A DNA stretch of 64,000 bases from Duganella sacchari (GTDB lineage: Bacteria > Pseudomonadota > Gammaproteobacteria > Burkholderiales > Burkholderiaceae_D): assembly GCF_900143065.1 (NCBI RefSeq), contig NZ_FRCX01000005.1:62001-126000 (forward strand). The letters run 5' to 3'. The notes beneath the pieces were generated by a model. That model was not told where the DNA came from. It ran no database searches and worked only from the letters and a program-made list of their open reading frames with translations. The number at the start of each line of letters is the position of its first letter. Within the stretch, counting starts at the first letter, position 1. The position numbers and the translations under genes were made by a program. This document shows positions 61,441 through 62,733 of this stretch, one piece after another.

Positions 61441-62520
61441 TTATTTGGAAGCGCTTTCAGCAGCTTGCGTGGCAAGCCGCCGCTGGCGCACGGCGGCAGC
61501 CAGGCCTTGCAGCACTTGCACGCTGCTGTCCCAGTCGATGCAGCCATCGGTGACCGACTGGCCGTAGGTCAGTTCCTTGCCTGGCACCAGGTCCTGGCGG
61601 CCGCCGACCAGGTGCGACTCCACCATCACGCCAACGATGCGGTTGTCGCCGCCCGCCACCTGGCCGGCGATGTCGGCGCACACCGGGATCTGGTTTTCCG
61701 GCTTCTTCGAGCTGTTGGCGTGCGAGGCGTCGATCATCAGGCGCGGCGCCAGGCCTTGGGCCGCGATCGCCTTGCAGGCCTCGTCGACGCTGGCCGCATC
61801 GTAGTTCGGCGTTTTGCCGCCGCGCAGGATGATGTGGCAGTCTTCATTGCCATTGGTCGAGACGATGGCCGAATGGCCGCCCTTGGTCACCGACAGGAAG
61901 TGGTGCGGCTGCGACGCGGCCTTGATCGCATCGACCGCAATGCGCGTGTTGCCATCGGTGCCGTTCTTGAAGCCAACCGGGCAGGACAGGCCAGACGCCA
62001 GCTCGCGGTGCACCTGCGACTCGGTAGTGCGGGCGCCAATCGCGCCCCAGGAAATCAGGTCGGCAATGTACTGCGGGCTGATCACGTCGAGGTACTCGGT
62101 GCCGGCCGGCAGGCCCAGTTCGTTGATGTCGCGCAGCAGTTCGCGCGCCATGCGCAGGCCGTCGTTGATGCGGAAGCTGCTGTCCATGTAGGGGTCGTTG
62201 ATGAGGCCCTTCCAGCCCACCGTGGTGCGCGGTTTCTCGAAGTAGACGCGCATCACGATTTCCAGGTCGCCCGCCAGCGCCTGGCGCAGCGGCGCCAGGC
62301 GGCGCGCGTATTCCATGGCCGCTTTCGGGTCGTGGATCGAGCACGGGCCGATCACCACCATCAGACGGTCATCCTGGCCGTGCAGGATGCGGTGCAACGC
62401 GATACGCGCATTGGCGGCCGTCTGCTCAGCCGCTTCCGTGCACGCATATTCGCGGATCAGGTGGGACGGTGGCGTCAGTTCCTTCATCTCGCGGATGCGC
62501 AAATCATCGGTACGGGGCAT
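61441..62520 (-). CDS. aroG: 3-deoxy-7-phosphoheptulonate (DAHP) synthase, AroG type
   Basis: 359 aa. First enzyme of the shikimate pathway: phosphoenolpyruvate plus erythrose 4-phosphate to DAHP. Type I-alpha features: MVVIGPCSIHDPKAAMEYA, MRVYFEKPRTTVGWKGLIND, PAGTEYLDVISPQY, VGFKNGTDGNT, KGGHSAIVSTNGN, IDASHANSSKKPENQ and the metal/substrate region near the end (QSVTDGCIDWDSS). The gene has GGAG before its ATG. Which amino acid inhibits it is uncertain. Expression looks controlled by an aromatic attenuator immediately upstream (leader peptide 62617-62697, terminator 62555-62588), where Phe codons dominate; this is compatible with an AroG (Phe) isozyme but does not prove it. Confidence 0.96.
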   Translation of the reverse strand: MPRTDDLRIREMKELTPPSHLIREYACTEAAEQTAANARIALHRILHGQDDRLMVVIGPCSIHDPKAAMEYARRLAPLRQALAGDLEIVMRVYFEKPRTTVGWKGLINDPYMDSSFRINDGLRMARELLRDINELGLPAGTEYLDVISPQYIADLISWGAIGARTTESQVHRELASGLSCPVGFKNGTDGNTRIAVDAIKAASQPHHFLSVTKGGHSAIVSTNGNEDCHIILRGGKTPNYDAASVDEACKAIAAQGLAPRLMIDASHANSSKKPENQIPVCADIAGQVAGGDNRIVGVMVESHLVGGRQDLVPGKELTYGQSVTDGCIDWDSSVQVLQGLAAAVRQRRLATQAAESASK

Positions 62521-62554: not shown

Positions 62555-62588
62555 AAAAAAAAACCGCCTCATCGGGAGGCGGTTTTTT
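62555..62588 (-). terminator. Attenuator terminator upstream of aroG
   Basis: Minus-strand hairpin with arms AAAAAACCGCCTC and GAGGCGGTTTTTT, 5-nt loop, T tract of nine. It stands between the leader-peptide stop and the aroG ATG. Its 5' arm (ACCGCCT) can instead pair with AGGCGGT inside the leader coding sequence (62646-62640), an antiterminator. Confidence 0.85.
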
Positions 62589-62616
62589 GGGATTCTGCTG
62601 GGACTCGTTTTTGCTT

Positions 62617-62697
62617 CTACGTGCACCGGCCGCTACTCCACCGCCTTTGGGTTGGAAAGCTAAAGTAAAACCAGCCGGTAAAGAAGAATTTGGTCAT
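62617..62697 (-). CDS. Aromatic-rich leader peptide of the aroG attenuator
   Basis: A 26-codon frame, ATG at 62697, TAG at 62617-62619. It begins MTKFFFTGWFYFSF: six Phe, one Trp and one Tyr in the first 14 residues, with a second Trp at position 20. Phe codons are a mix of UUC and UUU. The coding RNA contains ACCGGC (62679-62674), which can pair with GCCGGT (62630-62625), and AGGCGGT (62646-62640), complementary to the terminator's 5' arm. Ribosome stalling on uncharged aromatic tRNAs in the first 14 codons would block the first pairing and favour the antiterminator, permitting aroG transcription. This is the logic of the trp and pheA attenuators. There is no Shine-Dalgarno sequence; the promoter puts +1 on the AUG. 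Confidence 0.85.
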   Translation of the reverse strand: MTKFFFTGWFYFSFPTQRRWSSGRCT

Positions 62698-62703
62698 GGA
62701 TTG

Positions 62704-62733
62704 ACTATAACGCCATAGTTCGCGCCTTGGCAA
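62704..62733 (-). promoter_or_regulatory. Promoter of the aroG leader
   Basis: Minus strand: -35 TTGCCA (62733-62728), 18-bp spacer, -10 TATAGT (62709-62704), then six bases and the leader ATG. Standard spacing puts the first transcribed base on the A of the AUG. Confidence 0.7.

Follow-up and report, generated by a model that had tools for sequence, protein, structure and literature searches.

The window, which is the whole 64,000-nt stretch of Duganella sacchari DNA analysed here, carries a short open reading frame (ORF) crowded with aromatic codons upstream of the DAHP synthase gene aroG, and the locus raises the question of whether, and in what way, this frame controls the expression of the gene. 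The comparison of related sequences, together with RNA folding, makes it highly likely that aroG is controlled by ribosome-mediated attenuation of its transcription, as in trp and pheA, with the supply of phenylalanyl-tRNA as the signal.

Organization of the aroG leader region

On the minus strand the order of elements is tldD, a terminator-like site, a promoter site, the leader ORF, a terminator hairpin and aroG. The features of the leader and the gene are as follows:

62733-62704, minus strand: predicted sigma-70-like promoter of the leader and aroG, TTGCCA-18-TATAGT
62733-62728, minus strand: promoter -35 element, TTGCCA, separated from the -10 element by a spacer of 18 nt
62709-62704, minus strand: promoter -10 element, TATAGT
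62697-62617, minus strand: leader ORF of 26 codons plus stop, with the ATG at 62697 and the stop at 62619-62617
62688-62656, minus strand: putative aromatic sensor codons 4-14 (FFFTGWFYFSF), assigned from codon statistics and the fold model
62679-62625, minus strand: predicted guard hairpin (1:2), from folding, consensus fold and covariation
62646-62640, minus strand: region 2, AGGCGGU, the predicted antiterminator arm; GGCGG precedes the terminator in 103 of the 105 leaders
62583-62577, minus strand: region 3, ACCGCCU, predicted partner of region 2 (antiterminator) or of region 4 (terminator)
62588-62555, minus strand: predicted intrinsic terminator (3:4) with its U tract, from the folded leader and the terminator pattern
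61441-62520, minus strand: aroG, the putatively regulated gene, encoding a DAHP synthase of 359 aa (NCBIfam NF006723)

The aroG product was recognized as an AroG equivalog (NF006723) with 586.3 bits against the NCBIfam cut-off of 568, and the product of tldD, which lies upstream of the leader on the same strand, was identified as TldD, also by NCBIfam. The leader peptide, MTKFFFTGWFYFSFPTQRRWSSGRCT, contains six Phe, two Trp and one Tyr, and eight of the 14 residues at its N-terminal end are aromatic. This reproduces the frame reported in a preliminary description of the locus, whose sequence, coordinates and two mutually exclusive pairings were all exact. A longer frame of 38 codons, opening at an upstream TTG, was rejected, as its start would precede the -10 hexamer.

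The outer stem of the guard hairpin joins ACCGGC (62679-62674) with GCCGGT (62630-62625) and encloses an inner hairpin around 62660-62632. The terminator hairpin has 13 bp (62588-62558) followed by U's down to 62555, and region 3 is part of its 5′ arm. The intrinsic terminator proposed earlier downstream of the frame is present in the folded leader, though a simple terminator scan did not list the 62588-62555 hairpin, probably because the T run had been absorbed into the A-U end of the stem. A promoter-like site of its own was also seen for aroG in a simple scan.

Distribution among relatives and the start of the leader transcript

A scan of species genomes for AroG gave 591 confirmed places, of which the best 80 were kept, so that these 80 loci represent close relatives. 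At 78 of the 80 best-matching aroG loci an aromatic leader ORF, its Phe and Tyr codons densely clustered, occurs together with a terminator, and the frame and its aromatic codons, on which the preliminary description had built its case, are in this way recovered from relatives. The terminator pattern accompanies all 79 leaders (78 from relatives and that of the window); among the 80 loci, no leader was detected upstream of aroG in L031 and L071. The typical leader peptide is ...FYFSNSNPKAVE in Duganella and Janthinobacterium and ...FYFSYSSPTAVEKR in Herminiimonas and Oxalicibacterium, and most Paraburkholderia and Caballeronia loci encode MSAKFYFYFFW(H/Y)L(R/K)PLADREG.

A common promoter pattern, TTG[CA][CA]A-N16..19-TATRNT, was found upstream of 39 of the 79 leaders, with an 18-nt spacer in 37 of the 39. 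It bears on an explanation in which the hairpin merely ends the tldD transcript and the leader ORF is there by chance. The position of tldD, upstream and on the same strand, agrees with such an arrangement. However, a separate terminator-like site (62794-62769) was found behind tldD by the simple terminator scan and precedes the promoter pattern, and the ORF and the hairpin are kept jointly in relatives; we find this explanation scarcely credible.

The distance from TATAGT to the ATG is 22-38 nt in 36 of the 39 leaders with the promoter pattern and 6 nt in the window, L002 and L044. As an ATG lying 6 nt past the -10 hexamer coincides with the expected transcription start, the geometry of the promoter suggests that the mRNA of the window leader starts at its own AUG, i.e., that it is probably leaderless. 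A Shine-Dalgarno-like CGGA 5′ of the leader, seen in many relatives, is absent from the window (62709-62697) as well as from L002 and L044. The short spacing was not found in eight other genomes with the same genus code, at least three of which appear to be already counted as named loci; their spacings are 22-50 nt.

In L245 (from the 2.2-Mb genome G098, apparently also that of L031) the entire attenuator is absent and aroG begins 36 nt after the tldD stop. Since the whole element is missing from L245, the L031/L245 case has the appearance of a loss, in which the switch was deleted naturally. Family members without a detected aroG attenuator also include L071 (Undibacterium sp. TS12), where a script was used, and G148, where the RNA model was used.

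When the family was searched with this RNA model (R1), built from alignment A4 of 38 leaders, 143 of the 145 genomes gave a match at E <= 0.01, the best E being <= 5e-7 in 138. The eight best-scoring matches were inspected as loci and aroG adjoins in all eight. As the only structure retained in R1 is the terminator (10 pairs), its matches rest mostly on sequence. Four secondary matches were also inspected. L242 and L243 look like ordinary terminators with no aroG match nearby, L241 is a leader truncated by the contig end, so that no gene can be seen behind it, and L240 is the second aroG place of genome G241. These four gave no evidence of a regulated gene other than aroG.

In G241 the leader and aroG are present twice, at L240:1349-2560 and L244:1296-2508, one copy close to each end of the same contig. 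The two copies of aroG agree in 1047 of 1047 bases, and there is a difference of about one base between the leaders. The pair is therefore probably an unresolved end overlap (about 11 kb) of a circular assembly; a duplication is less likely.

To describe the order as a whole, 120 genomes were sampled, of which 94 have an AroG-like gene, at about 124 places; 120 of the 124 were analysed, the four omitted (genomes G040 and G084) showing 36-40% identity. An aromatic ORF with a terminator was found in 26 of the 120 DAHP-synthase upstream regions vs. none of 240 dinucleotide shuffles, by a relaxed detector which was written after a stricter first pass (22/120) and with which the shuffles were scored too. 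The positives come from 13 family codes, and each of their DAHP synthases is at least 64% identical to that of the window. The element was undetected in the other 94 regions, and an aromatic ORF without a terminator occurred in eight further regions vs. 3/240 shuffles. Outside the order, a class-wide sample gave a leader in one of 29 loci. The attenuator is widespread in the order yet far from universal, being present in a minority of the sampled upstream regions.

The sets of leaders used below were composed as follows. Alignments A1, A2 and A3 hold 75 of the 79 leaders, L011, L013, L033 and L055 having been omitted by eye as near copies. The set of 105 leaders consists of the 79 plus 26 from the order sample, namely 25 positives besides the window and L139, the terminator of which was detected only with a looser pattern. 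Fold statistics cover 103 of the 105, without L096 and L154, which lack an exact GGCGG. The samples partly overlap, and the pairs G098/L031, G176/L014, G246/L008 and G256/L006 each appear to be from the same genome.

Putative sensor codons, RNA pairing and the predicted switch

Phe is specified by 490 codons of the 105 leaders, Tyr by 225 and Trp by 57. Every leader has at least one Phe codon; Tyr is encoded in 101 of them and Trp in 50. Before region 2, 704 of the 713 TTN and TAN codons of these leaders specify Phe or Tyr, and their third bases vary (TTT 354, TTC 132, TAT 110, TAC 108). An amino acid that stays constant while the third base drifts is the pattern expected if translation of the codons is the sensor.

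The wide occurrence of Tyr and Trp codons could be taken to favor a combined sensor in its strong form, responding equally to Phe, Tyr and Trp. We consider this unlikely in view of the excess of Phe codons, of the His that replaces Tyr at one position in L016, L017, L025, L040 and L049, and of the F-Y-F leader AroR of Corynebacterium glutamicum, which reportedly responds to Phe and not to Tyr availability (PMC11802643). In the window, the second Trp codon, which is codon 20, shares nucleotides with the end of region 2, within an out-of-frame tail absent from most relatives, and it cannot serve as a stall site in this scheme. Judged by its codons, the aroG leader very probably senses Phe as its main signal, and Tyr and the run's one Trp codon could at most modulate the response, if they act. 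In assigning an input to Trp and Tyr, the preliminary description claimed more than the leaders bear out.

In the predicted switch, RNA polymerase would start at about 62697 and the leader mRNA would probably open with AUG. When charged Phe-tRNA is scarce, the ribosome would halt at codons 4-14 and cover the 5′ side of the guard hairpin. Folding suggests that region 2 (AGGCGGU) would then pair with region 3 ahead of the synthesis of region 4, and that transcription would proceed into aroG. With ample Phe, or with the leader untranslated, region 2 would be either covered by the ribosome or kept in the guard hairpin; being unavailable, it would allow 3:4 to form, with termination at 62555-62563 and a predicted short RNA of about 143 nt.

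The switch was modeled from folding energies on the transcript before region 4, with a ribosome footprint of assumed size masked, and its probabilities are inferred values. For the window, the probability of 2:3 pairing, P(2:3), was 0.02 without a ribosome and rose to 0.79-1.00 when the A site was placed at codons 4-14. From codon 15 onward it was 0.10 or less with pairing limited to downstream RNA. With the ribosome at the leader's own stop it reached 0.74 if pairing across the ribosome was allowed, so the off state of the window must depend on ribosome release. The window stop lies 26 nt past the start of GGCGG, and in many close relatives this distance is 10 nt. Over the 103 leaders, mean P(2:3) was 0.39 for ribosome-free RNA, 0.86 with the ribosome stalled at aromatic codons and 0.22 with it at the stop. 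The difference between stall and stop is at least 0.5 in 71 of the 103 and smaller in 32, and P(2:3) is at least 0.5 without any ribosome in 41.

These values have to be set against another explanation, in which the terminator is constitutive and partial and the ORF incidental, so that a basal level of aroG expression would be set without any sensing. The 2:3 helix is short (longest complement 5-8 bp, mostly 6-8), and full-length RNA at equilibrium favors the terminator, 3:4 forming with P = 1.00 in all nine leaders tabulated, as a partial terminator would have it. Such a terminator, however, would not account for aromatic codons that survive synonymous change in 105 leaders and 13 family codes, nor for the positions that leave region 2 free, which make up 721 of 755 aromatic codons vs. 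594 of 1675 other codons, stops included, in the 103 leaders; we regard it as very improbable. Equilibrium folding fails as an account of antitermination in full-length RNA, where 3:4 wins, and under ribosome-mediated attenuation antitermination must for this reason be kinetic.

A consensus fold of 32 Duganella/Massilia-type leaders contains the guard stem and the terminator. Guard column pair 25-74 is G-C in 17 of the 32 and U-A in 11, and the terminator helix is 97.5% paired with two compensatory pairs. The covariation score for the two helices was 0.112 vs. a shuffled mean of 0.058, with none of 500 shuffles as high, the sequences being related and kinship inflating tests of this kind. Neither the pairs changed on both sides (three; 364/500 shuffles as high) nor the further pair types (408/500) were above shuffles. 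The guard and terminator stems show some covariation. The comparative evidence of codon conservation and of covariation in both hairpins supports the earlier proposal of ribosome-stalling attenuation, mainly on Phe. The antiterminator core GGCGGU:ACCGCC is nearly invariant among leaders, so that covariation is no test of core pairing. Of 103 leaders, 55 have a complementary antiterminator flank pair vs. 40.2 expected (0/2000 shuffles as high), and the flank pair does not form in 17 of the 32 Duganella/Massilia-type sequences.

In the Burkholderia type the consensus 5′ guard arm lies at the start codon (UCCGCC with GGCGGA) and its pairs are nearly invariant, and the Herbaspirillum/Undibacterium type has a weaker guard fold. 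The predicted guard arm varies by lineage, and the codons, region 2 and the terminator persist. In the window and L002 small indels shift the frame of the leader tail and the region 2 RNA is kept, so the codons and the RNA seem to be separately constrained.

The same variation bears on whether a role in trans, beyond or instead of control in cis, is played by the leader peptide or by the short RNA that ends at the terminator. Such an RNA, transcribed from a promoter of its own and carrying an ORF, is indeed predicted, and peTrpL and rnTrpL of Sinorhizobium meliloti are reported as a precedent (PMC7298713). Yet the C-terminal half of the peptide is frame-shifted or replaced between relatives, leaving the aromatic run as its conserved part, and the 5′ arm of the predicted guard stem differs between lineages; a role in trans seems very unlikely.

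Within the preferred reading, that of cis-acting attenuation, we tentatively put forward, at not quite even chances, that the family forms a natural rewiring series. The aromatic codons, the GGCGG arm and the terminator would be kept throughout. The guard arm would have been rebuilt, its place being next to the aromatic codons in leaders of the Duganella/Massilia type and at the start codon in those of the Burkholderia type. The leaders of the window and of two relatives from Duganella would have turned leaderless, and those of the window and L002 would also run out of frame past the usual stop.

Probable scope of control and comparison with known attenuators

The window's genome encodes a second DAHP synthase (L202:1222-2280, contig C31), 52% identical and of the PRK12755 subfamily, upstream of which no aromatic leader was found. 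One of these two isozymes alone would thus be under the attenuator, and the statement in the preliminary description that the committed step of the whole aromatic pathway is controlled in this way was too broad. Its contrast with TyrR/TrpR repression in E. coli is incomplete, as it omits DAHP-synthase attenuators already reported or proposed.

Membership in the Rfam family Phe_leader (RF01859) was rejected, the window scoring 21.6 bits vs. a gathering cut-off of 55, and no Rfam match at threshold was obtained in seven leaders (the window, searched at a permissive E-value, and six relatives, searched whole). A comparison of proteobacterial regulons deals with TrpR/TyrR control of aromatic genes and with gammaproteobacterial trp/pheA attenuation, and its passages on aromatic regulons contain no aroG attenuator (PMC5343134). 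A term check found neither aroG nor aroF in the text available for PMC2965389 and gave no match in that for PMC10219788. Among the matches listed, which come from the open-access literature, we found no description of an aroG attenuator in Burkholderiales.

The leader offers a testable account of the control of one DAHP synthase in Oxalobacteraceae, in relatives of Burkholderia and in a few more families of the order, with separately conserved codons and RNA arms within a single leader. It would merit an RNA-family entry, and it is an obvious part to weigh in engineering these bacteria to produce aromatic compounds. The aroG attenuator introduces no new principle.

In E. coli pheL-pheA a Phe leader peptide works with terminator/antiterminator logic, and the Vibrio aroAI-tyrA operons are taken here to be DAHP synthase operons. 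The aroG leader resembles the reported attenuation of pheA (PMC11802643), from which it differs in its target, and putative attenuators have been noted upstream of the Vibrio operons (PMC1173090). The Acholeplasma uORFC-13-1 motif, for which attenuation of DAHP synthase has been proposed, is similar by its description, in that a uORF containing one or more Phe codons is predicted there, together with a terminator, ahead of aroF; it is reported from Acholeplasma and environmental sequences only (PMC8632094). The S. meliloti trpL/rnTrpL attenuator RNA has its 5′ end at the leader ATG, as predicted for the window, and differs in that Trp is sensed and trpE(G) controlled (PMC7298713).

Attenuation of a DAHP synthase gene is already known, the reported precedent being C. 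glutamicum AroR/aroF (PMC11802643; original Neshat 2014). There, too, a short Phe-Tyr-Phe leader peptide precedes a DAHP synthase gene, and stalling reportedly raises transcription when Phe is limited (PMC11802643). That system belongs to Corynebacterium and to an aroF operon, and its resemblance to the aroG leader is functional only. Three points are new in comparison with these systems. Probable aroG attenuators form a conserved family that occurs in 13 family groups of the order, and those searched against Rfam gave no match at threshold. The predicted guard arm varies by lineage. In the window, L002 and L044 the start codon coincides with the predicted start of transcription, which probably makes these leaders leaderless.
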